From positions 1 to 36,121 of the IMG/VR virus record IMGVR_UViG_3300037294_000665: DNA of 36,121 nt; one strand, 5' to 3'. The DNA comes from a virus. The translations under genes were made by a program, and so were the position numbers. This document shows, in pieces, positions 8,543 to 22,921 of this stretch (position 1 is its first letter; every line of letters starts with the position of its first letter). The notes below the pieces were generated by a model. It had not been told where the DNA came from and searched no databases. It saw nothing but the letters and a program-made list of their open reading frames with translations.

Positions 8543-8561
8543 GCTTATTCTTTAAGCTTTT
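8543..8561 (+). terminator. Weak terminator after mor
   Basis: GCTTA (8543-8547) pairs with TAAGC (8553-8557) across a five-base loop and is followed by TTTT (8558-8561). The short stem makes this a weak candidate for ending the early transcript before the oppositely oriented cargo genes. Confidence 0.3.
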
Positions 8562-9093
8562 ATTTAAAGAAAAAGCTCATTATTTCAATGTATAAGTATA
8601 CAATCCCTAACCCAGAAACAACCCCGAATACTGAATAACGAGCGGACCACATTAAATATGTTTTTGAAGAAACTATTTTATTAAAGTGGTTATTTTCGAT
8701 GGTATCGATTATGTCTTGGCAGGATTCTTGAAGTTCAAATCTCATTTGCCTTCTGACATCATTCTTTGTTTTAGTTGATATTTTTGCGTACTTTTCTATA
8801 TTAAACTGATACAAAGGAGCGAGTTCTTTTTCGTCCATAAAATTGCAAACGGCCAATTGATTTAGTTGCTTAAGCTTCCAATCAATTCTAGATATTTTTG
8901 CATTGTATCTATCTTCTAGATGAGAGCTGTTATTTTTGTTATCAAACCACTTGAATTCAGATAGTGAAGTCAGTAAGTCTATTAAAGCGTCTTTTTGAGC
9001 CGATATTGCAGCTCGTTTTGTACTGTGAAGATAAATCACCAAACTGATAATCCAGCTAATGAATACCCATTCAAATTTTATCCAGCTAGTCAT
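8560..9093 (-). CDS. Two-TM membrane protein of the cargo cassette
   Basis: The 177-residue protein has one hydrophobic segment near the N-terminus (FEWVFISWIISLVIYLH, about residues 7-23) and one at the C-terminus (YSVFGVVSGLGIVYLYIEIMSFFF, about 153-176). Between them is a charged helical domain. It is the last gene of a three-gene minus-strand operon; its start is one base after the STAS-like stop, with AAGG just upstream. No family is recognised. Two membrane spans around a charged domain suggest a membrane effector or sensor for the ATPase and STAS-like partners, which is inference. Confidence 0.75.
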   Translation of the reverse strand: MTSWIKFEWVFISWIISLVIYLHSTKRAAISAQKDALIDLLTSLSEFKWFDNKNNSSHLEDRYNAKISRIDWKLKQLNQLAVCNFMDEKELAPLYQFNIEKYAKISTKTKNDVRRQMRFELQESCQDIIDTIENNHFNKIVSSKTYLMWSARYSVFGVVSGLGIVYLYIEIMSFFFK

Positions 9094-9094
9094 C

Positions 9095-9436
9095 TTACCT
9101 TCTACTTTCAGCGGCTTGAATGCGTTCTAAGGCAGTTGTTACAAAGTTTTCTACAGAATCGTGCTTGATAACTAATTTGTCTTCTAATTGCTTTTTTGTG
9201 AATCCACTACGAGAAATTAATCCGCCAAAAGCTTCGTCCAAAAAAGATCTTCCGTATCTATTGTAGCCAGTCAAATCTACAATAACTCTGTCATAAGTGT
9301 TGAGCGCATTTACGAGAATTTTTTCACGAAAGACTTCACCAGCAGTAAGTTCACAACCAGGTGCATCACCCTTATATCGACCCTTAGGTTTAGGGTGGAA
9401 ATCACTAGTTACCAATATGGTTTTAATTGAGGTCAT
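9095..9436 (-). CDS. DUF4325 STAS-like domain protein
   Basis: The 113-residue protein fits the DUF4325 (STAS-like) family: VIVDLTGYNRYGRSFLDEAFGGLI at about residues 50-73 is its hallmark, with the GRSFLDEAFGGL helix after the central strand. These small domains resemble anti-anti-sigma factors and are usually encoded beside GHKL ATPases, as here. The start overlaps the ATPase stop by 14 bases, so the two are probably translationally coupled and make a complex. No usual phosphorylatable serine is obvious apart from S63 in GRSF. Confidence 0.85.
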   Translation of the reverse strand: MTSIKTILVTSDFHPKPKGRYKGDAPGCELTAGEVFREKILVNALNTYDRVIVDLTGYNRYGRSFLDEAFGGLISRSGFTKKQLEDKLVIKHDSVENFVTTALERIQAAESRR

Positions 9437-10610
9437 CTAATCTAATACTCCATTGTAGCAATGTGCCAGATAGTTCGTTTTGCAGTTCCATCCTATTGTG
9501 TTCTTCTTCATAACTTTCAGTATCTACTTTTTTAACTTTATTGTATTGGTAACACCCTCGATTACTGAATATGAAGAGCTTGCTATGAACGTCATCTGTC
9601 ACAACATCCTTGATTGACTTACTGCCTTGACCATGATTTTCGTCATCTAATCTCGTCATATCATGCATCATCGAAGCATAAATTAAACCTGAATCACCTA
9701 TTGTACTCCTTAACGGAGTGATCATAGCTTTCGCAGTTCGTAAAAACCTCACTATTTGACTTTGTTTTGAGCTTTCACTTTGTTCTCCATGAAGTAATTC
9801 GGAAAACTCTTTAGGGTAATTCTTTTTAACTCTCGCTTGGAAGACTGCACTGTCACCGAATGACAGTGGTATGCCTCTTCCTGCGTCAAAAATCGCTAAA
9901 TACATATACTCATCATTAGTGTTCCCGTTTGTACCAATAGAGCAAATTAGCCACCATTTTTTGTCTTTGTCTAAAGGGCTTTCAGGGTATGCATGACGTC
10001 CAACATTTTCAAGAGTTTCTATAACTGCTTGAGAAATACGAGCTTCAATATTATCAGGCATATCACCATGATAGTATTTATCTTTAATTGCATCGACAAG
10101 GGCATCAGGAAAAGTTTGAAATTCTTGGTTGCTGCCACTTATCACTGGGATGTGCTTTTGACCAGTATCATACATTGCGTGATTTCGTTCACTTGCGCAT
10201 TTAAATTTGCCTGATTTTCTAATCATTTTATTTACAAAACCAGACTTTTTAGACCAGATAATCGAAATTTTGCAGCTGTACTTATCGTGAATAGCATAGA
10301 GCAATAAAAACATGGGTAACTTAGCTTCTATCGTCTCTGAAAAGGATAGGTAGATGTGTACTTTTTCGCTAAGTAAAGCTTCGAAATCCTGTAAAAAACC
10401 AACAAATTCATCGCCGTAATGTGTTGAGAGTATATCGAAATTTACTGGTACGGGCAGTACAGGGCTTTTGAATATAGTCTTTAGCATTTTGCCATTAAAT
10501 GAAATGAAATCATTACCTGTGAAAATGGTACGACTATTTCCACGCAAATCAGGCGCAGAGTTTATTCTTTTGGATAACTCACGATCCTTGTCTTGAAGTT
10601 TCTTTTTCAT
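9423..10610 (-). CDS. GHKL ATPase partner of the STAS-like protein
   Basis: This 395-residue protein has a C-terminal histidine-kinase-like ATPase domain: N box ETLENVGRHAYPE (198-210), G1 box FDAGRGIP (241-248) and a G2-like HGQGSKSI (326-333). Residues 50-135 form a mixed alpha/beta region (VHIYLSFSETIEAKLPMFLL) that may be a second STAS-like fold. There is no histidine phosphorylation domain and no membrane segment. It leads the AT-rich minus-strand operon, and the STAS-like and two-TM genes follow. Known pairs of this kind resemble SpoIIAB/SpoIIAA switches, but the biological role here is unknown; anti-phage signalling is inferred from being prophage cargo. GGAG lies a rather long 14 bases before the ATG. 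Confidence 0.8.
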   Translation of the reverse strand: MKKKLQDKDRELSKRINSAPDLRGNSRTIFTGNDFISFNGKMLKTIFKSPVLPVPVNFDILSTHYGDEFVGFLQDFEALLSEKVHIYLSFSETIEAKLPMFLLLYAIHDKYSCKISIIWSKKSGFVNKMIRKSGKFKCASERNHAMYDTGQKHIPVISGSNQEFQTFPDALVDAIKDKYYHGDMPDNIEARISQAVIETLENVGRHAYPESPLDKDKKWWLICSIGTNGNTNDEYMYLAIFDAGRGIPLSFGDSAVFQARVKKNYPKEFSELLHGEQSESSKQSQIVRFLRTAKAMITPLRSTIGDSGLIYASMMHDMTRLDDENHGQGSKSIKDVVTDDVHSKLFIFSNRGCYQYNKVKKVDTESYEEEHNRMELQNELSGTLLQWSIRLDDLN

Positions 10611-10898: not shown

Positions 10899-10924
10899 AA
10901 TCCCGAAACCTTTCCAATCCGCTA
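10899..10924 (+). promoter_or_regulatory. Shared 26-bp element upstream of lysozyme (copy 1)
   Basis: This 26-base element begins AATCCCGAAA and ends ATCCGCTA, and matches the element at 21617-21642 in 24 of 26 positions. It ends 51 bases before the lysozyme ATG. The two copies occupy the positions of Mu late promoters Plys and PI, so it may be an activator-binding site; its function is unproven. Confidence 0.6.
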
Positions 10925-10936
10925 AAACGCCTTAAG

Positions 10937-10975
10937 CCGAGACAATGAACCTATGTTCACTGTCTCGGTTTTTTT
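10937..10975 (+). terminator. Intrinsic terminator hairpin abutting lysozyme start
   Basis: CCGAGACAATGAAC (10937-10950) pairs with GTTCACTGTCTCGG (10955-10968) across a CTAT loop with one mismatch, followed by seven T (10969-10975). The T-tract ends directly at the lysozyme ATG. This is a classic rho-independent terminator shape, yet it lies between a putative late regulatory element and the gene it should serve. Confidence 0.8.
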
Positions 10976-11503
10976 ATGGCCCCTCATACCCGTTCAAAGC
11001 TTTCACCTGTTAAGCCTGCATCAGCACAGCAAGAAGTAGCACTGCCTGGGCTGCTTGCCAGCGCAGTCAAGCTGCTATTAGCGGAAGAAGACTTCAAAGC
11101 CAAGCCCTATTTGTGCAGCCAAGGCTATCCCACTGTGGGTGTTGGCCAGCGCATTGGCCCCAAGGGCGCGGCGCTTGAACTCTATCAATTCACTTTGCCT
11201 AAAGCCGTTGCCATTGCTTGGCTTGAGGCGAATGTCAGCAGCATTATTGAGCAGCTTTCACAACACCCTGAGATAACAGCGGCCTTTGCTAACTGCAATC
11301 TAGCCCGCCAAACCGTACTGGTGAGCATGGCTTATCAAATGGGTGTTTCAGGGTTGACAGGATTTGAGCAAACCTTAGCAGCCCTTGCTGGTGGCCGATG
11401 GATTGATGCCAGATTGCATGCCTTAGATAGTTACTGGGCAAGAAAGCAAAGCCGTAATCGGGCCTTACGCCATGCAATGACATTAGCCACAGGTGAAAGT
11501 TAA
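10976..11503 (+). CDS. Phage endolysin, T4-type lysozyme (GH24)
   Basis: The 175-residue muramidase would cleave the glycan strands of peptidoglycan at lysis. The catalytic start EEDFKAKPY (about residues 37-45) and the GYPTVGVGQRIGP segment match glycoside hydrolase family 24, with the glutamate in LLLAEEDF as the general acid. ATG 10976 is the only start available before the conserved core: no ATG, GTG or TTG occurs in the next 35 codons, and an in-frame stop lies ten codons upstream. There is no Shine-Dalgarno sequence because the terminator T-tract occupies its place. No holin gene is obvious beside it. The stop overlaps the next start (TAATG). Confidence 0.85.
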   Translation: MAPHTRSKLSPVKPASAQQEVALPGLLASAVKLLLAEEDFKAKPYLCSQGYPTVGVGQRIGPKGAALELYQFTLPKAVAIAWLEANVSSIIEQLSQHPEITAAFANCNLARQTVLVSMAYQMGVSGLTGFEQTLAALAGGRWIDARLHALDSYWARKQSRNRALRHAMTLATGES

Positions 11504-11850
11504 TGACGCGCGGTCATCAAAGAGGTCAATACCAGTACCATGGCCATGAATGCAGCGCGGTTAATCATGCTCCCATGGAAAATATAACCCCAAAGCGCAT
11601 TCAAAACCGCGTCTATCGCCAGTGCGCTAAAGATGGCTTTAACGCCCGTTTAAAGGCAGAACTAAAACAAGAGCAGAACAGAGGCACTGCCAATAACCTG
11701 AGCCTAGCAAACAATATCCCCCTCTATAGCCACCACTCTACTCGCCAAAGCTACTTTAACTTGGGCTGGCAAGCTGTAACCACAGCGCACCTTATACGGG
11801 CGAAAGCCCGTGCCCAGAACCAAGTTAGCGTAAATAAGGCGGTTAAATGA
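11503..11850 (+). CDS. Hypothetical phage protein after lysozyme
   Basis: The 115-residue basic, histidine-rich protein (CSAVNHAPMENITPKRIQNR; STRQSYFNLGWQAV) has no family I can name with confidence. The C-terminal FNLGWQAV faintly recalls ribosome modulation factor-like segments in other phages, which is weak. Its start overlaps the lysozyme stop and its end overlaps the zinc-finger gene by four bases, so it is real by operon logic. Confidence 0.6.
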   Translation: MTRGHQRGQYQYHGHECSAVNHAPMENITPKRIQNRVYRQCAKDGFNARLKAELKQEQNRGTANNLSLANNIPLYSHHSTRQSYFNLGWQAVTTAHLIRAKARAQNQVSVNKAVK

Positions 11851-12080
11851 AACCAGAGGATTGGGCATCAGAGATGGAGCAGCGTGAGCGGGCAGCCTGC
11901 ATTGAACGGGCGCGCACTAAACACAAGCCGTGCCCCCAAGCCAAACAGGGGATCTGTTGTGATTGTTTAGATCCAGTAGAAGCCCATCGACCTAACGCAC
12001 TGCGCTGCCTTAGCTGCCAACGGGATGAAGACCACAGGCTGCGCTGTTTATACGGAGGCCACCATGCTGGATTTGATTAA
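11847..12080 (+). CDS. TraR/DksA-type C4 zinc-finger protein
   Basis: The 77-residue protein ends in a four-cysteine finger, CCDC (37-40) and CLSC (54-57), of the TraR/DksA type. An acidic coiled N-terminus (EMEQRERAACIERAR) precedes it. Members of this family bind in the secondary channel of RNA polymerase and alter transcription; small versions are common in Mu-like phages. It overlaps both neighbours, and the DUF2730 start lies within its last codons. Confidence 0.8.
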   Translation: MKPEDWASEMEQRERAACIERARTKHKPCPQAKQGICCDCLDPVEAHRPNALRCLSCQRDEDHRLRCLYGGHHAGFD

Positions 12081-12366
12081 AGAGTTCTGGGTGCAAATTT
12101 ATGCCGCTATTTCGCTCGCCTTGCTCATTGCCAACTGGTTTTTAGCTAAAACCTACGCCAAAACAGCCACAGTGGGCCAGCTTGAAAGCCGCGTCACCCG
12201 TATTGAAAACACCTTAGAACACATGCCCACCAAGGAAGAACTCAACCGCCTAGACAAAACCATTAGTGGTTTAACCGAGTCAATGAGCGCGACCAAAGAC
12301 GGCATAGTGCGCCTAGAGCGTAAAACAGACATTTTGCTTGAAAACGAGCTAAGAGGGGATCGCTAA
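12064..12366 (+). CDS. DUF2730 membrane protein
   Basis: Starting at ATG 12064, which has GGAGG seven bases upstream, the protein of about 100 residues has one transmembrane helix (about 10-28) and then a long coiled coil (VGQLESRVTRIENTLE, LNRLDKTISGLTE). This fits DUF2730, found next to the packaging genes of Mu-like phages. An upstream in-frame start at 12025 is rejected because it lacks a ribosome-binding site. The role is unknown; its place in the lysis block suggests the host membrane. Confidence 0.75.
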   Translation: MLDLIKEFWVQIYAAISLALLIANWFLAKTYAKTATVGQLESRVTRIENTLEHMPTKEELNRLDKTISGLTESMSATKDGIVRLERKTDILLENELRGDR

Positions 12367-12662
12367 TGGCGATGCAGAATATTATCAATGAACACCAGCG
12401 TTTAGTGGTGCTTAGATTACTCACCGAAGCCGGTGCGTTCGCGCTCAATGAGTCCATCTTGCAAGATGGTCTCATTGCCTATGGCCTCGACATTAGCCGC
12501 GATACCTTGCTTACACAATTAGCTTGGCTTAATGAGCAAGGGCTGATTAACACTGACCTAGTTGGCAAAGTGACAACCGCAACCTTAACCGGTCGCGGCC
12601 AGGATGTGGCCACGGGACGCGCCTTGGTACCAGGCGTTAAGCGACCACGGGCAGGGGAATAG
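12366..12662 (+). CDS. VpaChn25_0724 family (gp26-like) winged-helix protein
   Basis: The 98-residue protein reads NEHQRLVVLRLLTEAGAFAL, then SILQDGLIAYGLDISRDTLLTQLAWLNEQGLI, a winged-helix DNA-binding layout typical of the VpaChn25_0724 phage family found between DUF2730 and DUF3486 genes. It overlaps the DUF2730 stop by one base. A role with the terminase is guessed from position only. Confidence 0.75.
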   Translation: MAMQNIINEHQRLVVLRLLTEAGAFALNESILQDGLIAYGLDISRDTLLTQLAWLNEQGLINTDLVGKVTTATLTGRGQDVATGRALVPGVKRPRAGE

Positions 12663-12664
12663 CC

Positions 12665-13228
12665 ATGGCAAATGAAACCCGAGGCCGTCGCTCTAAGGTG
12701 GACTTGTTACCTGAATCTATCCGCAGGCACTTAAATGCGGGCTTAAGGGATGGCTCTATCACCCAAGCCGAGCTGTTAGAGGAAATCAATGGCCTGATTA
12801 ACACCGCAGGCTTACCCCATGATTTACAGCTATCAAGGGCGGGGCTAAACCGCTATGCCACTAAGATGGAGGCCGTAGGTAAAAGTTTACGAGAAATGCG
12901 CGAAATCACCCAAGTGTGGACCGCCGAGCTTGGCGATAAACCCACGGGTGAAGTCACCAAATTGATCTTAGAAATGGCCCGTTCACAGTTGTTTAAAGCC
13001 CTATTAAATGAAGACGGTGAAACCGCAGACGTTGGCATGATAAAAGATGCCATGTTAGCGGTGCAGCGCCTTGAGTCTGCCGCCATGGCAAGCCATAAGC
13101 GCGAGAAAGAAATTCGCACCGCCTTTGCTGCAGAGGCCGCTAACGCCGCCGAAAAGGTCGCTAAAACGGCGGGGCTGACCAAAGATGCGGTGGCCTTGCT
13201 GAAACGTGAAATCTTGGGGATAGCTTAA
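12665..13228 (+). CDS. DUF3486 protein, probable small terminase subunit (gp27-like)
   Basis: The 187-residue protein starts RGRRSKVDLLPESIRRHLNA, the conserved DUF3486 opening, with a helix-turn-helix around residues 12-60. The rest is helical and alanine-rich. In Mu, gp27 lies just before the large terminase gp28, and this order is kept here. It probably recognises the packaging site and passes DNA to the large subunit. GGGGAATAGCC precedes the ATG. Confidence 0.8.
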   Translation: MANETRGRRSKVDLLPESIRRHLNAGLRDGSITQAELLEEINGLINTAGLPHDLQLSRAGLNRYATKMEAVGKSLREMREITQVWTAELGDKPTGEVTKLILEMARSQLFKALLNEDGETADVGMIKDAMLAVQRLESAAMASHKREKEIRTAFAAEAANAAEKVAKTAGLTKDAVALLKREILGIA

Positions 13229-13291
13229 CAGCAGGACGGCCTTCGGCCTGCGAGGACGCTGCGCTGCGAGATCCTAGAACCTAGGACCTAG
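13227..13291. repeat. Short intergenic repeat element, copy A
   Basis: The sequence begins AACAGCAGG and contains GGCC-TTC-GGCC, GCTGCGCTGCG and the near-palindrome CTAGAACCTAGGACCTAG. The intergenic site at 32821-32866 begins with the same nine bases and contains the same CTAGAACC and CTAGGACCT words. It separates the small and large terminase genes and is not followed by a T-tract, so it is probably not a terminator. Confidence 0.5.
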
Positions 13292-13308
13292 TATTAATTG
13301 GAATTGCC

Positions 13309-14895
13309 ATGAATCAAACCACATTCGATCCCGCCCTTGAGGCAAGCTATCTCAGCATCTTTGACCCCAAAGAGGTGTTGCTAGGTTATCAAAAACGCTG
13401 GATAGCCGATGAGTCACCGCTGAAAATTGCCGAAAAGTCTCGCCGTACCGGTTTAACCTGGGCTGAAGCAGCCGATGCCGCCCTTAGCGCTGGGGCTGCC
13501 CGTGGCCAAGGCGGTAGCAATCATTTTTACGTTGGCTCAAACAAAGAAATGGCGCGGGAATTTATTGATGCCGCCGCCATGTGGGCCAAGGTATTTGATA
13601 AAGCCGCCGGAGAAATCCAAGAAGAAATCTTCATTGATGACGGCCAAGATGGCAAAGAAATCCTCACCTTTGCCATTTACTTTGCCTCAGGCTTTAAAAT
13701 TCAGGCCCTTAGCTCTAACCCTTCAAACCTGCGCGGTATGCAGGGCAATGTCACCATAGATGAAGCGGCCTTCCATGAACGCTTAGCAGAGGTACTAAAA
13801 GCCGCCTTAGCACTGACCATGTGGGGCGCCAAAGTGCGCTTAATTTCTACCCATAACGGCATTGAAAACCTGTTCAATGAACTAATTAACGATTCTCGCG
13901 CCGGTAAAAAGGATTACTCAGTTCACCGCGTCACCTTAGATGATGCCTGTAACGAGGGGCTGTATAAGCGTATCTGCCAGGTGCGCGGCATAGATTGGAG
14001 CCAAGTGGGCGAGGATGACTGGAAAGCCAAGCTGCTTAAAGCCACCGCCACCGAAGAAGATGCCCTAGAAGAGTACTTCTGTGTGCCCAAATCGGGCGGC
14101 GGCGCCTACCTTAACCGCGCCTTAATTGAAGCGCGCATGGCAAACCTTGAGCGCAGCGGCCCTGTTATTCGCCTTAAAAAAGATGACAGCTTTGGTCAAT
14201 GGCCAGAGGGCTTGCGGGCAGCGGAGATCTTGCAGTGGTGTGAAGACGAGCTAAAGCCAGTGCTGGATAGCTTAGATCCCACTCGGCCCCACTGTTTTGG
14301 GGAAGACTTTGCCCGAAGTGGCGACTTAACTGTGATTGACGTGGGCGAAATAGCCCAGGACTTACACATCACCACCAAGTTGCAAGTGGAGCTTAAAAAC
14401 ATTCCTTTTCGCCAGCAAGAGCAAATCTTGTTTTACATTGTGGACCACCTGCCTCGACTGCGGGGCGGCGCTATGGACGCGCGCGGTAACGGCCAAGCAT
14501 TAGCAGAATACGCCCAAGACAAATACGGCAGCGAAGTGATCGCCTGCGTGATGTTGTCTGAGCCGTTTTACCGTGAGCAGATGCCGCGCTTTAAAAGCCA
14601 CTTTGAAGATGGGCTAATCACCATCCCCCGCGATGATGACACCAGCACAGATCTGCGAGCCCTAAGCATTAACCGCCGTGGCACCCCTTGTTTAGGTGAC
14701 GTTCGCACCGGCCAAGAGAAAGAACGCCATGGGGATGCGGCTATTAGCCTGTTCTTGATGGTGTACGCCTCAACCTTAGACGGCGCCCCCATAGAATTTA
14801 CCCCCATTCCTAAAAGCGAACATCGTAACCCCAATGCCAAAGCCTGTGATGACGATGCTCAAGACCTAATGCAAAACGTGCGAGGTTGCTGGTAA
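13309..14895 (+). CDS. Large terminase subunit (Mu gp28-like)
   Basis: The 528-residue protein is the packaging motor. A deviant Walker A (EKSRRTGLTW, about residues 42-51), Walker B VTIDEA (148-153) and a STHNG coupling motif form the ATPase. The nuclease part shows GEDFARSGDLTVID, GGAMDARGNG and RHGDAAISLFLM, with aspartates that should hold metal. In Mu-like phages this enzyme fills heads by a headful mechanism that takes some flanking host DNA. TTGGAATTGCC precedes the ATG, only a moderate ribosome-binding site. The stop shares its last base with the portal start. Confidence 0.9.
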   Translation: MNQTTFDPALEASYLSIFDPKEVLLGYQKRWIADESPLKIAEKSRRTGLTWAEAADAALSAGAARGQGGSNHFYVGSNKEMAREFIDAAAMWAKVFDKAAGEIQEEIFIDDGQDGKEILTFAIYFASGFKIQALSSNPSNLRGMQGNVTIDEAAFHERLAEVLKAALALTMWGAKVRLISTHNGIENLFNELINDSRAGKKDYSVHRVTLDDACNEGLYKRICQVRGIDWSQVGEDDWKAKLLKATATEEDALEEYFCVPKSGGGAYLNRALIEARMANLERSGPVIRLKKDDSFGQWPEGLRAAEILQWCEDELKPVLDSLDPTRPHCFGEDFARSGDLTVIDVGEIAQDLHITTKLQVELKNIPFRQQEQILFYIVDHLPRLRGGAMDARGNGQALAEYAQDKYGSEVIACVMLSEPFYREQMPRFKSHFEDGLITIPRDDDTSTDLRALSINRRGTPCLGDVRTGQEKERHGDAAISLFLMVYASTLDGAPIEFTPIPKSEHRNPNAKACDDDAQDLMQNVRGCW

Positions 14896-16550
14896 TGCAA
14901 GAGAAAAAATCCACTCAAGATACATCCACCATCTTAGATGCCAGCGGCCGCCCATTTAAGCTCGATAAAGCCAAGTCCCTACAAACCGATGATGTGCGTT
15001 TAATGGGCCTAAAACGCACTTATAGCCAGCACCCCAGCAGTGGCCTTACTCCAGCCTCTGCCGCCAGTATTTTACAGGCGGCGGAGCAGGGCGATCTAAT
15101 CGCCCAATGTGAACTGGCAGAAGATATTGAAGAAAAAGACGGCCATCTCTATGCCGAGTTAGATAAACGCAAACGCGCCTTAATCGGGGTGGATTACCAC
15201 TTAGTGCCGCCCCGTAATCCCAGCACCCAAGAAAAAGCGGATACTGAATATCTGCAAGAAATGCTCGAGGAAGGCAACTGGATAAAGACCTTAATTAAAT
15301 CCATCAGTGATGCCATTCTAAAAGGCTTTAGCATGCATGAATTAGCCTGGACCCGAGAGCTAGGGGAATGGTTTGTGGAAGTACCTGAGTATCGCGATCC
15401 CTCCTGGTTTATGACTCACCCAGAGCGGCGTAATGAGCTGCGACTGCGAGATACCACAGATGAGGGCGCCGAGCTGTGGCCCTTCGGTTGGATAAAGCAT
15501 TTGCACTTAGCTAAATCAGGTTACATCAGCCGTGGTGGCCTAGTACGCCAGTTGATTTGGCCGTTTATTTTTAAAAATTACAGTGTGCGTGACTTAGCCG
15601 AGTTTCTTGAAATTTACGGTTTGCCTCTGCGCATAGGACAATACCCAGCAGGGGCCAACGATGATGAAAAGCGCGCCCTATTGCAAGCGGTCATGAGCAT
15701 AGGCCATAACGCCGGCGGCATTATGCCCAAAGGCATGGTGATGGACTTTCACAGCGCCGCCACAGGCCAAGCCGATCCCTTCGACTTGATGATGACCTGG
15801 GCCGAAAAAACCATGAGCAAGGTGATTTTGGGCGGCACACTTACCAGCCAAGCCGATGGTAAAAGCTCCACCAATGCCTTAGGCAATGTCCATAACGAAG
15901 TGCGCCAAGAGCTGCGTGATTCAGATCTTGCCCAAATCGCCGAAACCTTAACCCGCGACTTAGTGGCGCCCTTGTATGCGCTAAATTGTAAGAGTTACCA
16001 GAGCCATCGCCGTCACCCACGTTTGGTTTTTGATACCACAGAATCTGAAGATTTACGCGCCTTAGCCTATCCGCTGCGGGCGTTCGTCAGCATGGGCATG
16101 CAAATACCCCAGCAGTGGCTACATGAAAAGACCCGTATACCAAAGCCCGCCAATGGTGAAGCGGTATTGGCGATTCAAGAAGAGCAGCCAGGCCAAAGTG
16201 TGGAAACCGCCTTAGCCGCACTTGCTGCCAAAGATGCCGCTAAAAGTGCAGTCGAAACTAGAGCTGAAGCTAGAGCCGAAGTGATAGCCACGCAAACCGA
16301 TGCCATAGCCGCCAGAGATAACACGGATAAGCTTATCGACCAACTCGCCACCAATGCCGCGCCCCTCATGGCCCAGTTGATGAGTCCTGTGGCTGATGCG
16401 GTATTAAGTGCCACTAGCCTAGTCGAGCTTAGGCAGCAAATCCAAGGGTTGGAAACCGAGCTAGACAGTAAGGCATTAGAGAAACAAATGCAGTTAGCCA
16501 TAGCTGCTGCCTATTTGCTCGGCCAAGTAGAGTTGGAAGAGGGCGACTAA
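14895..16550 (+). CDS. Portal protein, DUF935 (Mu gp29-like)
   Basis: About 551 residues starting at ATG 14895. The core has the DUF935 features YAELDKRKRALIGVDYHLVP, SMHELAWTREL and the region around FLEIYGLPLRIGQYP and LGGTLTSQADGKSSTNALG. The portal forms the dodecameric ring at one head vertex through which DNA passes. The C-terminal 100 residues are alanine-rich coiled coil. An upstream TTG at 14886 is in frame but unnecessary. Confidence 0.9.
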   Translation: MQEKKSTQDTSTILDASGRPFKLDKAKSLQTDDVRLMGLKRTYSQHPSSGLTPASAASILQAAEQGDLIAQCELAEDIEEKDGHLYAELDKRKRALIGVDYHLVPPRNPSTQEKADTEYLQEMLEEGNWIKTLIKSISDAILKGFSMHELAWTRELGEWFVEVPEYRDPSWFMTHPERRNELRLRDTTDEGAELWPFGWIKHLHLAKSGYISRGGLVRQLIWPFIFKNYSVRDLAEFLEIYGLPLRIGQYPAGANDDEKRALLQAVMSIGHNAGGIMPKGMVMDFHSAATGQADPFDLMMTWAEKTMSKVILGGTLTSQADGKSSTNALGNVHNEVRQELRDSDLAQIAETLTRDLVAPLYALNCKSYQSHRRHPRLVFDTTESEDLRALAYPLRAFVSMGMQIPQQWLHEKTRIPKPANGEAVLAIQEEQPGQSVETALAALAAKDAAKSAVETRAEARAEVIATQTDAIAARDNTDKLIDQLATNAAPLMAQLMSPVADAVLSATSLVELRQQIQGLETELDSKALEKQMQLAIAAAYLLGQVELEEGD

Positions 16551-18029
16551 GTGGCCATCCCTAAGACTCAATACGGTAATGTGCCTTTTGCACAGGCCAT
16601 TGCCCATTTCAGATCTAAAATAACCCAGCCCACTGAGCGCTGGGCAGATGTCTGGGGCGAGGCCCATAATCGCGCTTTTATGGTCGCAGGCGCCATGAAA
16701 AAGGCGTTACTCAAAGACTTATATACCTTGGTTGATGATGCTATTGCCCGTGGCGTTAGTCTAAATCGTTTTCAGCAAGAGTTTGCCAGCACGGCAGCTA
16801 AACACGGCTGGGACTATACAGGCCCTGAGCCGTGGCGGGCGCGGGTGATTTACGACACCAATTTACGCCAAAGTTACAATGCGGGGCGCGAGGCACAAAT
16901 GCAGGCCGCCATAGCCCGCCGCCCCTATGGCCTATACCAGCACGGTGACTCCTTGCACCCAAGGGAAATGCACCTCAAATGGCATGACATGGTATTGCCC
17001 TTAGATGATCCTTGGTGGCAAACCCACAGCCCTTCAAACGGCTACGGCTGCAAGTGTAAGAAGTACAGTTTGAGTGAAGCAGAGCTTACCCGCCGTGGCC
17101 TGTCTGTATCGACAGCGCCTAAGATAGAGTATCGCGATTATATTGATAAACTCACAGGGGAAATCATACCTGTGCCTAAAGGCATAGACCCAGGCTTTGA
17201 TTACCGCCCAAGCTCACTAAAGCAGGCCAATACTAAGCTGCGCTCCCAAACTAAAAAGGCGGAAAAACAAAAAACAGCTAAGCAGCCGGTTAGCAATCAA
17301 CCCAGCCCGAGGATCATAGATAGCGTCTTTAGCACCCTAAAAGGCGTGGATGCTAAAAGCTTATCTATGCTCTTAAATCAGCTGGAAGCAGAGCCACAGC
17401 AATTATTAACCCAGTACATGGCGGCCAAAAATACTAAGACCTTATTTGTTAAACAAACCGAAATGGGCAAGAGTCAACGCGCCGATGCCATAAAGCATGA
17501 GGTGGCCGAATACTTAGCCATAGACCCCCAGCAAGCCAGGTTCATGTATTACAGTTCTCGCGCTAGCCGTGTTAACGGTTTTACCGCTAAAAGGTGGCAG
17601 CACATAGTGATAAAAGGCAGCACCAAGACGCAATTTTCACGCATTAATATGGCTAAAATTAAGCAAGCCGCCACTGAGGTCATCACCACGGCCCGCACTA
17701 ATATCGGCGGCGACAGCTTCTATGGCCGTGGCAATAACGCCTTATTGAATCGCCATTGGAGTGTGTCCCACAGGGTAAATCAATTGGAAGGGGATAGCGG
17801 CCGCGTACTGGCAACCTGGGCCCATGAGCTGGGCCATCAAATACATTTTAACGGCGGCGAAATAGACTTAAGCCCCTTTGGCTTTGTATCTCGATATGGT
17901 ATGACTAATCATTATGAAGTCTTTGCAGAATGGTTTGCCGCTTGGCTATTCGCCCCCAATGAGGTTAAACGCTATAACCCCGCACTGGCAGCGGCCATAG
18001 TCAGCACCATTAAACAGGCCATTAACTAG
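16551..18029 (+). CDS. Mu F-like head morphogenesis protein with C-terminal HEXXH domain
   Basis: The 492-residue protein starts at GTG immediately after the portal stop. Residues 1-215 are a Phage_Mu_F (SPP1 gp7) head morphogenesis domain: ARVIYDTNLRQSYNAGREAQ, then HPREMHLKWHDMVLPLDDPWW and SPSNGYGCKCK. After a linker (about 220-260), the C-terminal part has a zinc-metallopeptidase signature HELGH (425-429), with glutamates at 456 and 460 (HYEVFAEWF) as possible third ligand. Such fusions place an enzyme on or in the virion, so this domain might be ejected with DNA into the host. The substrate is unknown; gpF-family fusions to ADP-ribosyltransferases are known, but the metallopeptidase type is less described. 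Confidence 0.85.
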   Translation: MAIPKTQYGNVPFAQAIAHFRSKITQPTERWADVWGEAHNRAFMVAGAMKKALLKDLYTLVDDAIARGVSLNRFQQEFASTAAKHGWDYTGPEPWRARVIYDTNLRQSYNAGREAQMQAAIARRPYGLYQHGDSLHPREMHLKWHDMVLPLDDPWWQTHSPSNGYGCKCKKYSLSEAELTRRGLSVSTAPKIEYRDYIDKLTGEIIPVPKGIDPGFDYRPSSLKQANTKLRSQTKKAEKQKTAKQPVSNQPSPRIIDSVFSTLKGVDAKSLSMLLNQLEAEPQQLLTQYMAAKNTKTLFVKQTEMGKSQRADAIKHEVAEYLAIDPQQARFMYYSSRASRVNGFTAKRWQHIVIKGSTKTQFSRINMAKIKQAATEVITTARTNIGGDSFYGRGNNALLNRHWSVSHRVNQLEGDSGRVLATWAHELGHQIHFNGGEIDLSPFGFVSRYGMTNHYEVFAEWFAAWLFAPNEVKRYNPALAAAIVSTIKQAIN

Positions 18030-18078
18030 GCTTTTAAACAAGCCGCCACTCGTTAAACGCCCGTTAACTGCCGTTTAC
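18010..18078. repeat. Phased TTAAAC-type motifs between gpF and next gene
   Basis: TTAAAC or close variants occur near 18010, 18022, 18033, 18053, 18063 and 18073, at spacings of 10-12 bp or twice that. The first copies are in the end of the gpF gene and the rest are intergenic. Similar phased arrays occur at 20350-20387 and 26257-26286. Confidence 0.4.
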
Positions 18079-18095
18079 AAAATTAGGATTTTGTT

Positions 18096-18299
18096 ATGAC
18101 CCAGAGTCGATTAGCCCAAGCTGAAGCCCTGCTAGCCGCGCCGCTAACTTTAGCTGCGCTGCGCCAATACCAAGAGCTAGCATCCCACACTGACGATGCC
18201 GAGATTGAGCAGATACTCGATCTTGCCTCGGCCTTTTTCGTAGCCGCCTCAGCCGATGACGCCTTATTTGCCGAGGCCATAGCACAGGACCTTATCTAA
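18096..18299 (+). CDS. Small alanine-rich hypothetical protein
   Basis: The 67-residue acidic helical protein (TQSRLAQAEALLAAPLTLAA; DAEIEQILDLASAFFVAAS) lies between gpF and gpG and shares its last base with the gpG start (TAATG). AGGATTTTGTT precedes the ATG. The function is unknown; a small head-assembly role is possible from position. Confidence 0.65.
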   Translation: MTQSRLAQAEALLAAPLTLAALRQYQELASHTDDAEIEQILDLASAFFVAASADDALFAEAIAQDLI

Positions 18300-18751
18300 T
18301 GACGGCCCGCATTAGCATTGAGTCAAGCCAACTGCATAGCATGATAGAGCTATTGCAAGGCTTGCAGGATAAAACCACGCAGCTTGAGCCGGTAATGGAG
18401 GACATAGGCGAATACCTACTATTGGCACATCAAGAACGTAACGCTAAAGCCATAGCACCGGACGGAACCCCTTGGGCTCCACTGTCCAGCACTACTCAGA
18501 CCTTAAAGCCGCGCCATCAAACAGCGCCACTGCGCTTAAACGATATTCTGCTTAATCAACTCATCTACCAAGCGGATGATAGCGGTCTAGAATTTGGTTC
18601 AAACATGATCTACGCCGCCATGCAGCACTTTGGCGGCACCACATCGCCAAAAAGCATGATCCCCAACAAAGCTATACCCGCAAGGGAGTTTATTGGGGTA
18701 TCAGGGGAAGATGAAGAATCTATCTTGGAGATCTTGAAAGGTTATTTTTAA
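18299..18751 (+). CDS. Phage virion morphogenesis protein gpG (first copy)
   Basis: The 150-residue protein has the gpG/virion morphogenesis pattern: APDGTPWAPLSSTTQ, the repeated-strand region, YAAMQHFGGT and the end REFIGVSGEDEESILEILKGY. Mu gpG is a tail-head completion or virion-assembly factor. A second related gene follows. Confidence 0.85.
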   Translation: MTARISIESSQLHSMIELLQGLQDKTTQLEPVMEDIGEYLLLAHQERNAKAIAPDGTPWAPLSSTTQTLKPRHQTAPLRLNDILLNQLIYQADDSGLEFGSNMIYAAMQHFGGTTSPKSMIPNKAIPAREFIGVSGEDEESILEILKGYF

Positions 18752-18897
18752 GGGGTTGGCTCAGGTTCTGGTTTAAATTTAAAACCTAAATCTAGTATGC
18801 CCTTTACTAGAGCCTCGCTCCTTAATGTTTCGCAAAGAGTGGCTACGTTACAGAAAGCGCAATACCAAGTGTTTGAAGGCAAGTTAAGAGGGCAGGT

Positions 18898-19332
18898 ATG
18901 CGCAAGATTGATATCACCTTTAGCAGTGGCACTGTAATGCAGGTGCTGACTAGCTTGATCGAATGGCTCGATGATTTAAGCGAGCCGATGAACGATATCG
19001 CCGCTGTGCTCGAATCGGCCACCGAATCAGCATTTGAAGCAGAGGCCGATCCCGCCACAGGTCAAGCATGGGCATCGCTCAGTGATGCCTACCTTAAGGC
19101 CAAGCTTCAACGTCAGGGCGGTAAGATATTACAGATGAGTGCTGGCGGGTTAGCCGCCAGCGTGACTGCCGAAAGTGACGACTTCTGGGCCGCCATCCAC
19201 CAGTCCGGTGGCACAGATGATATGCCCACAGGCCCAGCGGATATTCCTGCGCGTCCATATCTTGGTGTAAGCACTGATGATGAGCAATCTATGCTAAGTC
19301 TATTATCTGGTTGCTTAGTTCTGGTATCTTAA
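18898..19332 (+). CDS. Second gpG-like virion morphogenesis protein
   Basis: The 144-residue protein repeats the gpG architecture: DPATGQAWASLSDAYLKAK, LQMSAGGLAASVTAES, IHQSGGTDD and IPARPYLGVSTDDEQSMLSLL. The first gpG gene is only distantly similar, so this is an old duplication or an acquired paralogue. The C-terminus (GCLVLVS) looks foreign: it runs 18 bases into the 3' end of the inverted AbiC-like gene, which suggests the original 3' end was replaced when the cargo arrived. AGAGGGCAGGT precedes the ATG. Confidence 0.75.
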   Translation: MRKIDITFSSGTVMQVLTSLIEWLDDLSEPMNDIAAVLESATESAFEAEADPATGQAWASLSDAYLKAKLQRQGGKILQMSAGGLAASVTAESDDFWAAIHQSGGTDDMPTGPADIPARPYLGVSTDDEQSMLSLLSGCLVLVS

Positions 19333-20226
19333 ATTGACTACTAAGGAGTTTATCTTCCCTAGTTCGTTTGCAATCGCTTCTGTCCAAAATATGTCTTGGA
19401 ATGGTTTCAGCATTTTTCTTGCTTCATCTAAATATATTGGAGCTAAATCAGGGCTATTTGAAAGTTCATGATACTTAATAACGATATTAGAGAATTGCTT
19501 TAAAATGTTTTCAAGTTCTTGCCATTGTGCTGCAGCACTGATGTCTGTTGAATCGTCATAATTATTTTTAAGGAATATTTTGAGGTCCTCAGATCTTTGT
19601 GCATTCCAAGCAGAAGACTCATATATGATATTGTAAACACTAACTTGCCTTATCGAATCCCCTTTTTTAAATCCTGAAGGGGCAATACGCATCAAAATGT
19701 TGTATAGGTCATTAGTGATAAATAAAGGTATATGTATTAGAGATTGATATTGTGCTCTTAAGTCAACCATTAATCGCATTATCTCATTGAGTTGTGCCTC
19801 ATTTTTGAGATGTGTCACTTGATCTTGCATTGCCCGCCGACTAAGTGCCGTTTCATCTTTGGTCTCAGCTAGTTCTTGGCGGGTAAGGGCGAGTTCTTGT
19901 CTCGATAATGCTAGTTCATTCATTTGAAGTTTCAGTGACCAAATCAGTAGCGCTACAGTTGCAAAGCCTAAGATTGGATTCAGTACGCCACCCAGAAAGT
20001 CGCCAAATGCACCGAAGTCTGCTTGATTGCCAAAGCCCAGCTCTAGACGATAGCCAAAATTAAAATAGTAAAATGCGAGAAGTGACAATGAAATGCTGCC
20101 CAGTACGGCAAACAGCCACTTGAATGAAATGGCCTTGTCGCCTTGGTCGCTCTTAGCTGTATCAGAGCCAGCATTAACAGGATCTGTTGCCGTTGAGTTG
20201 GCTATCGAGGGGGGATTGGTTGTCAT
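19315..20226 (-). CDS. AbiC-like abortive infection membrane protein (putative)
   Basis: Starting at ATG 20226 the protein is 303 residues. It has two transmembrane helices (36-55 and about 78-98) with the phrase FGDFLGGVLNPILGF (74-88), then a coiled coil with heptad-like repeats ELALSRQELALTRQELAET (104-122). This TM-TM-coiled-coil layout is typical of the putative phage abortive infection proteins related to lactococcal AbiC. A longer start at 20286 adds 20 residues without a ribosome-binding site. It is AT-rich, points against the phage operons and sits with a nuclease-like gene, fitting a defence cargo. The trigger and mechanism are unknown. Confidence 0.6.
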   Translation of the reverse strand: MTTNPPSIANSTATDPVNAGSDTAKSDQGDKAISFKWLFAVLGSISLSLLAFYYFNFGYRLELGFGNQADFGAFGDFLGGVLNPILGFATVALLIWSLKLQMNELALSRQELALTRQELAETKDETALSRRAMQDQVTHLKNEAQLNEIMRLMVDLRAQYQSLIHIPLFITNDLYNILMRIAPSGFKKGDSIRQVSVYNIIYESSAWNAQRSEDLKIFLKNNYDDSTDISAAAQWQELENILKQFSNIVIKYHELSNSPDLAPIYLDEARKMLKPFQDIFWTEAIANELGKINSLVVNLRYQN

Positions 20227-20286
20227 CTGCCGTCCATGGTTTAAAAATAAAGACGCTATTCTAAGGCGATAAGCTGCGAAGCACAA

Positions 20287-20442
20287 AGCCCTAAAACACG
20301 ATTTAAGCGCTTTAGCTTTTAATTGGGTAAACGACTTACCCTAAACTCGTTTAAACGCTTTAACAAGTATTTAAACAGGTTTTAAACTGGGTTATGCTCG
20401 ATAGATCTATCTAAAAAGACAAATAACTAAGCGAGAAGTAAT
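20287..20442. promoter_or_regulatory. Divergent control region of second cargo block
   Basis: This spacer separates the AbiC-like and nuclease-like genes. It holds a 6-bp inverted repeat GGGTAA/TTACCC (20325-20330, 20336-20341), the palindrome CGTTTAAACG (20348-20357) and TTTAAAC words at 20350, 20370 and 20381. A candidate plus-strand promoter is TTAAAC (20371-20376), 16 bases, TATGCT (20393-20398), which is weak. Divergent promoters and a shared regulator are likely but unproven. Confidence 0.4.
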
Positions 20443-21564
20443 ATGAATCGGGACGAAGTCATTCAACGCTATCTTGAGCTAAATGAGTTAATTGTTGATT
20501 ACGAATACCACCCCTGTCCTTGCGAAGCGCACAAAGAAATTAGGTTGCGTAGTTTTGGTGGTGGTAAACATTATGTTTATCAATGCACTTTGTGCGGAGA
20601 GCAAAGGGGGGGCTCATTAAAAAAGAGCGATGCCTTAAATATATTGGATGGAAGTGAGCCGAAAAATTTTGATCCAAAGCTTGAAGAAATAATACGTGAT
20701 CGTATTTCATTAAGAATTAAGGATGGAGTTAATATTCGTAATGAAATTCGCGAATTAGAACGTAAATTATCAGGAGAGGATGAAAGTGACCATGGTAATT
20801 CAAGTTTTGTAGAGGAATATACAAAGAACAAAAAGAAATTTGAGAAATCACTTGCTGCGATAAAAGATGAATTGATTGAAAATGTTGGAGAAGAAGTTGC
20901 AGTTAGATTTTTAACAGATGCAATAGTCTCTATTAGGAAAAAACAATACTTAGTAAATGTTCAATCAGCAGACCGCTTTACTTGTGAAGAGGAGCTTAAA
21001 CGATGGCTTGTTAAATATCTTTCGGAAGATTTTGATATTTTCCCTGAAGTCTGGGGGCATCATCAATTTGAGAATGTTAACGTTCGAATTGATTATGTTG
21101 CTTTTCCCAAGCAACACCTTATAGATAAAGGTTTTTGTGCGGAGCCATTTGGAATTGAGGTCAAATATTTCAGCCAAGAAAATGGTTTTACTAGAAAAAC
21201 AAGCAGGGGCTTTTGGCAAACTATTTCATATAATGACTGTTGGTTTGAACTAAATCAGCATAAAAAAAAGTTAAAGTTTAGTTTGCTTTTCTCTAATTTA
21301 GCTTTTGAATCTGAGATGAGATTAGTTAGGAATTACGGATATAACACTGAAAATGATCTTATGGAATGGAAAGGAATGCTTCACTTAGCTAATCATGCAA
21401 ATGTTGGTTTACTAGGTGTTTATGGTGATAAAAATAGCTGTTTGTCTTGGACTATAAAATTTGCAGGTGGCGTTTATTTCGGTGCCAGTAAAAGGCCTGG
21501 CCAGATTGACTTTAGACTTTCTAATCCAAATGTAATTAATAACGTAAGGATCGGTAATTTTTAA
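20443..21564 (+). CDS. Zinc-ribbon, PD-(D/E)XK nuclease-like protein
   Basis: The 373-residue protein starts with a four-cysteine zinc ribbon, CPC (25-27) and CTLC (48-51). Residues 75-150 are charged and probably coiled. The C-terminal half shows a PD-(D/E)XK arrangement: E183 in EEELKRWL, D217 in RIDYVAF, E239 and K241 in GIEVKYF, and Q259 with Y263 in FWQTISY. This fits nucleases of restriction or repair type. It is AT-rich, divergent from the AbiC-like gene and immediately upstream of the protease operon's element. A DNA-cleaving defence role is likely but the assignment rests on motifs only. GCGAGAAGTAAT precedes the ATG. Confidence 0.6.
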   Translation: MNRDEVIQRYLELNELIVDYEYHPCPCEAHKEIRLRSFGGGKHYVYQCTLCGEQRGGSLKKSDALNILDGSEPKNFDPKLEEIIRDRISLRIKDGVNIRNEIRELERKLSGEDESDHGNSSFVEEYTKNKKKFEKSLAAIKDELIENVGEEVAVRFLTDAIVSIRKKQYLVNVQSADRFTCEEELKRWLVKYLSEDFDIFPEVWGHHQFENVNVRIDYVAFPKQHLIDKGFCAEPFGIEVKYFSQENGFTRKTSRGFWQTISYNDCWFELNQHKKKLKFSLLFSNLAFESEMRLVRNYGYNTENDLMEWKGMLHLANHANVGLLGVYGDKNSCLSWTIKFAGGVYFGASKRPGQIDFRLSNPNVINNVRIGNF

Positions 21565-21584
21565 TTAAAATTATACTAGCTTAA

Positions 21585-21599
21585 TGAAGCTATGCTTCA
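21585..21599. other. Short perfect hairpin after nuclease-like gene
   Basis: TGAAGC and GCTTCA pair across TAT. No T-tract follows, so it is not an obvious intrinsic terminator; it could be a 3' stabilising hairpin. Confidence 0.35.
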
Positions 21600-21616
21600 C
21601 GGGCTACTTATCGACC

Positions 21617-21642
21617 AATCCCGAAATCTTTCCTATCCGCTA
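21617..21642 (+). promoter_or_regulatory. Shared 26-bp element upstream of protease I (copy 2)
   Basis: The element begins AATCCCGAAA, ends ATCCGCTA and differs from the copy at 10899-10924 at two positions. It ends 55 bases before the protease ATG, nearly the same spacing as copy 1. Location corresponds to Mu PI. The flanking bases are unrelated, so it is a discrete conserved element. Confidence 0.6.
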
Positions 21643-21665
21643 GCGAGTCGAGCGAGATCATTATA

Positions 21666-21697
21666 GGCACTCCAATGTTATTGAGAGTGCCTTTTTT
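21666..21697 (+). terminator. Intrinsic terminator hairpin abutting protease I start
   Basis: GGCACTC (21666-21672) pairs with GAGTGCC (21685-21691), and CAAT/ATTG extend the stem with one bulged A and a GTT loop. Six T (21692-21697) follow and end exactly at the ATG. The stem sequence is unrelated to that at 10937-10968, but the arrangement is the same. Confidence 0.75.
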
Positions 21698-22921
21698 ATG
21701 TCTGCTACTTCCAGTGCTTTGGGCTTTGCCGCCCTTAGTCGTCAACTCAACAGTGATAGCCAAACAAGTTTAGTACTTGGCGAGGACGGTTACATTCAGG
21801 CCCTGCCTGATGGGGCCTTTGCTGCTGTGGATGGCAGGCCACTGGATGTAAAAGGCGGTAAGTGGTTAATGGACAGGGAAGCGTTCGCGGCCCTGCAAGC
21901 AAATACCCCCCATCAAGCCGGTGATCTGGTCATAGACTACGAACACCAAACCTTAAACAAGGACAGCAACGGCCAGCCTGCGCCTGCTGCTGGCTGGTTT
22001 AACATCACTGACGTGCAATATCGTGAGGGTAAAGGCTTATTCATTAAGCCGCGCTTTACCGATAACGCCACCGCGTTTTTATCGGCCAAAGAATATAAGT
22101 ATTTCAGCTTAGTCTTTGGTTACGACACCCAAAGCGGGCGCCCCCAGTACATACATTCAGCCGCGTTAACCAATCGGCCAGCCCTGGATGGCCTGCTACC
22201 TCTAGCGCAGCTAACCGCTGCAATGGGCGCAAGGCTGCCTGCGGAAGCAAACACCCTAAAAACCACTCTCACTCAATTGTCTGCAACGCCGTTAAACAAC
22301 GCGGTTAATCCCACCCAACTGGAGGAATTCCATGTGAACCCATTACTTAAAAAGCTTATGGCAGCCCTTGGTATCGAGGTGGCAGAAGATGCCACTGTGC
22401 TGAGCGCTGACCAAGAAACGGCGGCATTGTCGGCCCTGGATGAGTTAACCACTGCGGCGGCCAGTGTCGATGGTTTAAACCAAAAATTAGCCGTGCTCAC
22501 GGCTAAAGATACCCAGCAGGGCAATATTCCTGCTGGGCAAGTGGATTTAAGCCAGTTTGTCCCTGTTGCCACAGTCGATGCCATGCGTGAGCAACTTGCC
22601 AGCTTAAGTGCGCAAAATGGTCAGCTGACCATAGAGCAATCAGTTAAGCAGGCACTGGATGAAGGGCGGGTGCTGGCCTGTGAGCAAGACTACCTAATAC
22701 TGCTAGGAAAACAGCAAGGCTTTGCGGCGCTAACGGCGCACTTAGCCAGCCGTAATCCCATTAATGCACTAACCCGAGTGCAGACCAATACAGTGGTAAA
22801 GCCCACGGATAAATCAGCTCTGGCGGTATTAAGCGCCGAGGAAAAACACATGGCCGATGCTTGGGGAATGTCCTATGACGACTTCGCCAAGGCAAAAGCT
22901 GACGATGCCAACGCCAACTAG
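21698..22921 (+). CDS. Mu I-like head maturation protease, with scaffold region
   Basis: The 407-residue protein has an N-terminal Mu I-like protease domain (about residues 1-175): LVIDYEHQTLNKDSNGQPAPAAGWF, GLFIKPRFTDNA, YKYFSLVFGYD and HSAALTNRPALDGL. The C-terminal half is helical and acidic, the scaffold. In Mu, protease I processes the scaffold and capsid, and the shorter protein Z is made from an in-frame internal start; the same arrangement is visible here at 22334. The ATG follows the terminator T-tract, so the ribosome-binding site is poor (GAGAG about 15 bases upstream). Confidence 0.88.
   Translation: MSATSSALGFAALSRQLNSDSQTSLVLGEDGYIQALPDGAFAAVDGRPLDVKGGKWLMDREAFAALQANTPHQAGDLVIDYEHQTLNKDSNGQPAPAAGWFNITDVQYREGKGLFIKPRFTDNATAFLSAKEYKYFSLVFGYDTQSGRPQYIHSAALTNRPALDGLLPLAQLTAAMGARLPAEANTLKTTLTQLSATPLNNAVNPTQLEEFHVNPLLKKLMAALGIEVAEDATVLSADQETAALSALDELTTAAASVDGLNQKLAVLTAKDTQQGNIPAGQVDLSQFVPVATVDAMREQLASLSAQNGQLTIEQSVKQALDEGRVLACEQDYLILLGKQQGFAALTAHLASRNPINALTRVQTNTVVKPTDKSALAVLSAEEKHMADAWGMSYDDFAKAKADDANAN
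22334..22921 (+). CDS. Internal in-frame scaffold protein Z
   Basis: A GTG at 22334 is in frame with the protease gene and has GGAGGA (22321-22326) eight bases before it. Translation from it gives about 195 residues beginning MNPLLKKLMAALG, containing the coiled, acidic scaffold region. This mirrors Mu, where gpZ is the C-terminal part of gpI made from an internal start. The strong ribosome-binding site inside the coding sequence is direct evidence; expression is inferred. Confidence 0.7.
   Translation: MNPLLKKLMAALGIEVAEDATVLSADQETAALSALDELTTAAASVDGLNQKLAVLTAKDTQQGNIPAGQVDLSQFVPVATVDAMREQLASLSAQNGQLTIEQSVKQALDEGRVLACEQDYLILLGKQQGFAALTAHLASRNPINALTRVQTNTVVKPTDKSALAVLSAEEKHMADAWGMSYDDFAKAKADDANAN

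Follow-up and report, generated by a model that had tools for sequence, protein, structure and literature searches.

The window analyzed here is the whole 36,121-nucleotide (nt) stretch of IMG/VR virus record IMGVR_UViG_3300037294_000665, which belongs to a siphophage of the Mu-like kind with Shewanella phage vB_SspS_MuM16-1 as a relative. Its late lysis/packaging operon begins with the endolysin gene lys and its late head/tail operon with gene I for the capsid maturation protease. Each of these two genes is preceded by a copy of a 26-base-pair (bp) element and by a hairpin that ends at the start codon (Table 1). We describe here the element, the hairpins and the two late promoters, Plys and PI, that they are predicted to contain. 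The single Mor-family match in the whole record is the late activator gene at 7992-8462, and the related phages likewise have one Mor-family gene each.

Table 1. Features of the two predicted late promoters and of the neighboring genes in the window
Feature	Position	Strand	Basis or remark
Activator box of predicted Plys, AATCCCGAAACCTTTCCAATCCGCTA, inner dyad GAAA-N2-TTTC	10899..10924	+	Same place in relatives
Leader hairpin of lys, stem AAGCCGAGACA/TGTCTCGGTTT plus TGAAC/GTTCA	10934..10971	+	Folding; T-tract up to 10975
Predicted -10 of Plys, GACAAT, inside hairpin 5' arm	10941..10946	+	Fixed offset, A41/T45 invariant
Predicted Plys start (A), in hairpin loop; leader 23 nt	10953	+	Predicted from hexamer + 7
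lys, endolysin, first gene of late lysis/packaging operon	10976..11503	+	Pfam Phage_lysozyme; PHROG endolysin
Activator box of predicted PI, AATCCCGAAATCTTTCCTATCCGCTA	21617..21642	+	Same place in relatives
Predicted -10 of PI, CATTAT, just before 5' arm	21659..21664	+	Fixed offset
Leader hairpin of I, AGGCACTCCAAT/ATTG-A-GAGTGCCT	21665..21692	+	Folding; T-tract up to 21697
Predicted PI start (position 52), inside hairpin 5' arm; leader 27 nt	21671	+	Predicted
Gene I, capsid maturation protease, first gene of late head/tail operon	21698..22921	+	Pfam Mu-like_Pro E 2e-91
Mor/C-family late activator gene	7992..8462	+	Pfam PF08765 E 8e-33; 88% identity to MuM16-1 protein C
Cargo genes, activator gene to Plys	8560..10610	-	
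Cargo directly 5' of PI	19315..21564	19315-20286 minus, 20443-21564 plus	

The two copies of the element are identical at 24 of 26 bases, and matches with at most three mismatches occurred twice in the window and never in 100 shuffles. Exact matching against IMG/VR located the element in 11 further contigs, upstream of I in 10 and upstream of lys in one. Seven of these 11 records were scanned whole; six carry both copies or more, and the seventh, which is 25.7 kb long and perhaps incomplete, carries one. Both copies are also present in MuM16-1 of Shewanella sp. M16, at 10412 and 21972. Finding relatives through the I protein required alignment, as the I-protein search alone reached two. Among 84,980 species genomes of bacteria and archaea that were scanned, Shewanella had the element, and there were three lone matches in unrelated taxa (L021, L022 and L030) that we took as chance. 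The 129 Shewanella genomes gave 26 sites in 16 genomes, including ten pairs on one strand 8-19 kb apart, and no site for a reversed control pattern. A first-pass annotation of the window had equated the two positions with Mu Plys and PI and had proposed a single Mor-type activator for both; the sequences support the former, the presence of one Mor-family gene per phage supports the latter, and related prophages carry the element at the same two places upstream of lys and I. The DNA upstream of the element is phage-specific up to a few bases before it. Thus, the element forms a fixed edge beside exchangeable cargo, and in the window unrelated cargo lies directly upstream of both copies.

Downstream of each copy lies a strong hairpin with a calculated energy of -21.8 kcal/mol (z score, -6.5) at lys and -15.3 kcal/mol (z score, -4.2) at I, and both beat all 200 shuffles. 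At both sites a GC stem and a T-tract are followed without a gap by the ATG, which are the sequence features of an intrinsic terminator. The same annotation had reported the 24-base match, a strong hairpin with a T-tract after each element, an ATG 51 or 55 bases downstream and stems that differ between the two sites, all of which we could reproduce, and the sequences bear out its view that this is selected structure rather than duplication. Stem sequences are also unrelated between clades. Within groups of related phages, three cases of double substitutions that keep the pairing were found: (i) CTGAGCACAG/CTGTGCTCAG and CTGAACACAG/CTGTGTTCAG, (ii) CATGCCGCC/GGCGGCATG and CATACCGCC/GGCGGTATG and (iii) CATGCTGTCA/TGGCAGCATG and CATACTGTCA/TGGCAGTATG.

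When starts are ranked on folding energy alone, base composition acts as a confounder (F, J and TerS score too), and for this reason we used a strict test of stems at the start codon. The test requires a perfect stem of at least 7 bp, with one G-U pair allowed, that ends between -9 and +3 of the start; start codons of IMG/VR loci were assigned by rule. Strict stems were present at 14/19 lys genes and 20/38 I genes. Five control genes had none among 151 starts (TerS, 0/29; TerL, 0/26; portal, 0/24; T, 0/32; J, 0/40), while G had 3/36 and shifted control positions gave 6-9%. For lys and I together against the five clean controls, Fisher's test gave p = 4e-24, a value that is optimistic owing to the relatedness of the phages. 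A lys start hairpin with none at I was seen in Vibrio phage ZX4290 (L017), L086 and L120, and in L098, L100 and L135 the lys start hairpin may be kept with none at I.

The predicted -10 hexamer lies equally far from the element at both window sites, and the spacing between element and hairpin differs by ~12 nt. When spacers are numbered from the first C of CCCG, A41 and T45 are present in 31/31 unique spacers of Shewanella and Pseudoalteromonas HS6-type phages, and no other position within 24-60 of these spacers is invariant. These two bases are positions 2 and 6 of a hexamer nAnnnT, and hexamer positions 2 and 6 are the most conserved bases of the sigma-70 -10. In a set reduced to 18 spacers with more than 8 differences in 28 positions, 17 keep A41/T45 and every other offset reaches at most 6/18. 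Sites fetched later keep them in 15 of 16 cases, the exception having an altered box; these 16 include several close relatives and are therefore not 16 independent tests. The hexamers seen are GACAAT, CATTAT, CATGAT, CATACT, CACAAT and CAGAAT. A -10 placed 19 nt from CCCG, the Mu Plys distance, was tried and rejected, as it gave no conserved hexamer in the Shewanella sites whereas positions 40-45 gave one. A simple promoter/terminator scan reported neither window site because it requires a -35 and an unbroken stem.

Setting the hexamer at -12 to -7 places the inner dyad GAAA-N2-TTTC at a center of -43.5. In phage Mu, Mor binds a dyad centered at -43.5 in Pm, where it replaces the -35 (PMC4390567, PMC4287176), and C binds a related dyad in the four late promoters (PMC4287176). 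The dyad-to-hexamer distance is 31.5 bp in the window type versus about 30.5 bp in Mu Pm, where the distance from the likely TAA-N6-TTA dyad thus agrees within 1 bp. A group with an unrelated box (TTAGCAAAACCCTTTAATC) has the same distance at 5/6 sites, and the sixth is a weak box match. The element is best read as the predicted C/Mor activator site of Plys and PI. A C/Mor-type activator would bind it, the site being centered some 43.5 bp before the start and substituting for a -35, and the weak -10 (nAnnnT) at a fixed distance would work together with the bound activator.

Since cargo reaches to within a few bases of the element and varies among phages, the element could instead serve chiefly for recombination or cargo insertion, in which case its presence upstream of lys and I would only mark where cargo goes. 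Phage G012, which has four copies (at lys, I, a tail gene and the left end), adds to this, as its left-end copy precedes no real gene. On the other side, the hexamer lies at a fixed spacing downstream, different boxes have the same geometry in other clades, and Mu has the same layout without cargo between C and lys. We consider an insertion site as the main function highly improbable, although a promoter role and a cargo-insertion role could coexist. The third G012 copy (L054, minus strand, about 1400-2030) is a late-type element with its own hairpin before the tail gene; it looks like the late promoter of the tail operon, and a 165-amino-acid cargo-like gene is inserted just upstream. The fourth (left end; L055 / L012:2155, minus strand) has a lys-type hairpin followed by an ATG with a stop four codons on. 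It adjoins a 354-amino-acid cargo-like gene, and a truncated Mor-family remnant lies nearby (G012:C1:41086-41223).

The 3' arm of the hairpin ends at or just before the start codon, whereas the place of the hexamer relative to the stem varies: it lies before the 5' arm at the window I gene, within the arm at the window lys gene and in the loop in a clade with GCCGCC. On this comparison it is the start codon, and not the promoter, to which the hairpin is anchored. Inverted repeats over the -10 and +1 are typical operator places, and the dyads might accordingly act as DNA, as operators overlapping the late promoters and bound by a repressor, rather than as RNA structures. Within one phage lys and I have different arms, which a single repressor could not both read, and the variable place of the -10 within these start-anchored dyads does not fit an operator either. 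One-sided G-U pairs are also tolerated (for example, GCACAATCAGTTCA/TGAACTGGTTGTGC), and we regard the operator explanation as extremely unlikely.

A T-tract follows the hairpin at both window sites and in many relatives. Several relatives keep the hairpin without it (L003, L004, L007, L011, L150 and L153, with a GTG start 3 nt after the stem; HS6; and L054), and the shared feature is therefore the hairpin and not a terminator. With +1 taken as the seventh base after the hexamer, the predicted late leaders are 20-27 nt long, and because this +1 lies inside the hairpin the late RNA would lack most of the 5' arm. In folding calculations full-length leaders gave -12 to -31 kcal/mol and predicted late leaders -2 to -11 kcal/mol.

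Start sites in Mu can be approximated from promoter oligonucleotides that were designed with 20 nt downstream of the start mapped with S1 (PMC4461284). This design implies a +1 at about the last A of GCCATCA for Plys and at about the CA of CTGCTCA for PI, with lys and I leaders of 24 nt each. The Mu 5' arms (CTGCCATCA for lys and CTGCTCA for I) lie essentially upstream of the implied +1, and their 3' partners are TGATGGCGG, which holds the lys start codon, and TGAGCAG, which lies just before the I Shine-Dalgarno sequence. Among the Mu gene starts examined only five have such stems, those of gene 18, lys, I, mom and one tail gene, and gene 18, lys and I are the first genes after Pm, Plys and PI. 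Because these three carry such stems, a hairpin at the start codon seems to be shared by Mor/C-activated promoters as a family trait, Mu included. The mom start region is held in an inhibitory structure that is relieved by Com. At gene 18 (L019 749-967), the stem GTGATGA/TCATCAT covers the start codon, with its 5' arm downstream of the -10 and upstream of the predicted +1.

By sequence, the window promoters are new members of the Mor/C-activated class. They share with Mu Plys, PI and Pm the gene positions, a Mor-family activator, a dyad near -43.5 in place of a -35, a weak -10, a predicted leader of about 24 nt and a start-codon stem with its 5' arm positioned at +1 or further upstream. They differ from Mu in the box sequence, in the number of Mor-family genes (two in Mu, one in the window) and in having T-tracts on the hairpins and cargo directly upstream.

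Given their strong resemblance to intrinsic terminators with T-tracts, the two window hairpins could be true terminators inside a late transcript that starts at an activator promoter and is controlled by antitermination or attenuation. We dropped this as the main model and consider it unlikely: the relatives listed above have the hairpin without a T-tract, the +1 predicted from the conserved hexamer falls inside the hairpin, so that the terminator would not be within the late transcript, and S1 mapping in Mu implies a start at which the 5' arm is lost. The first-pass annotation had offered two roles for the hairpin, of which the blocking of read-through from upstream cargo is supported by the sequences and antitermination control is not supported, in view of the same predicted +1 and T-tract-less relatives. 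Another possibility is that transcription starts further upstream and that the hairpin stabilizes the 5' end of the late mRNA or enhances its translation. Hairpins at the 5' end can protect mRNAs and the two window leaders lack a clear Shine-Dalgarno sequence, but a stem that ends at or over the AUG should block initiation, the starts implied for Mu fall where the 5' arm ends or beyond it, and no other offset has a conserved -10 candidate. We find this very unlikely.

We favor a model in which the late activator promoters are nested in a start-codon hairpin and the choice of start site bypasses the gate, and from the arrangement of these sequences we think it probable. Read-through RNA from middle genes or inserted cargo would carry both arms and fold; it would then be terminated where a T-tract follows and would otherwise be untranslated through its sequestered start region. 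RNA from the late promoter would start within the hairpin without most of the 5' arm and would be freely transcribed and translated. Start-site choice would thus act as the gate, with no lysozyme or capsid protease expressed before the activator is made, irrespective of the upstream cargo, and the gate would work without an antitermination factor. The model fits the cargo before I in the window, as one of its genes (20443-21564) reads toward I.

A precedent is gene e of phage T4, in which early read-through RNA hides the lysozyme start and the late promoters lie in the 5' arm (PMC3014915). The likeness to T4 gene e (and to soc, 49 and I-TevI) is that read-through RNA folds over the start and late RNA lacks the 5' arm, and e is also a lysis gene. 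T4 is an unrelated phage with another promoter class and unrelated sequences, and the gate in the window is not homologous to that of gene e; the window promoters would be of an activator-dependent sigma-70 type, often have a terminator and are also found at a capsid protease gene. Compared with intrinsic terminators, with which the window hairpins share the GC stem and T-tract at both sites, they touch the start codon of the next gene, contain or adjoin its predicted promoter and persist in relatives without a T-tract.

Several points weigh against the nested gate. Shewanella leaders, including those of both window ATGs, have no clear Shine-Dalgarno sequence. Strict stems at F (6/27) are also above background, in the wider set roughly one I gene in two has no strict hairpin, and the sampled phages are related, so that counts are not independent. 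The hexamers match TATAAT poorly; poor hexamers are expected if the promoters depend on an activator. The computed gain in accessibility of the start region is modest for the window lys gene (0.36 to 0.46; for I, 0.36 to 0.62). Lastly, the sequences give the anatomy and its conservation, and from these we infer activator binding, start sites and the effects on termination and translation.

In a further group (GCCGCC type) the loop contains the hexamer nAnnnT, which precedes the ATG by exactly 6 nt, and +1 would therefore be the A of the AUG. This leaderless-type group includes L069-L072, L079, L080, L084, L090, L099, L104, L108, L111, L112, L114, L128 and L136; in L070 a CCCG box independently gives the same +1. 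Shewanella locus L154 has the standard box and spacing followed by the hexamer CAATAT, GGGGTC and the ATG, all within a GTGACCCC..GGGGTCAT stem, and judged from this layout it is a bridge between the leadered and leaderless architectures. Taken across the family, Mu-like Mor/C promoters would generally be nested in a start-codon hairpin that shuts off read-through RNA, in Mu as elsewhere, and in some clades (GCCGCC; L154) the late lys and I mRNAs would be leaderless, with +1 at the A of the AUG and the -10 in the loop. We give this wider claim an even chance. In Pasteurella phage Pmp9 (L056 2528) the start codon of the late activator gene is closely preceded by a strong hairpin, the top rank in that record; a hairpin gate may also be present at this activator gene.

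The cargo slot before lys holds a minus-strand operon that includes a STAS-like DUF4325 protein. The two cargo genes before I have no Pfam match, and PADLOC gave only marginal matches in the two slots (Cas12f, 0.002; LmuB, 0.004); it is possible that genes in these slots are defense genes. In MuM16-1 the cargo before I (L015 20281-21523) includes a reverse transcriptase gene, and the content of the slot differs in each relative.

The open-access literature searched held no description of a nested hairpin gate in Mu-like phages, which is weak evidence of novelty as older Mu papers mostly lie outside it; the word hairpin occurs neither in the Mu promoter paper nor in the one on the Mu endolysin, and a search for leaderless Mu-like late promoters or phage read-through hairpins turned up only T4. 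If the wider claim is true, a start-site-dependent gate that has gone undescribed would operate across the whole Mu-like family, phage Mu included, and the model predicts an extra layer of control at gene 18, lys and I of Mu. Phages that have the lys hairpin but none at I would offer a natural comparison for the role of the I hairpin, and late start sites would become predictable to the base in many unstudied phages. The gate would be a natural way to build a gene that stays off under read-through and would provide a simple rule by which Mu-like phages may carry arbitrary cargo beside their lysis and head genes without premature expression.

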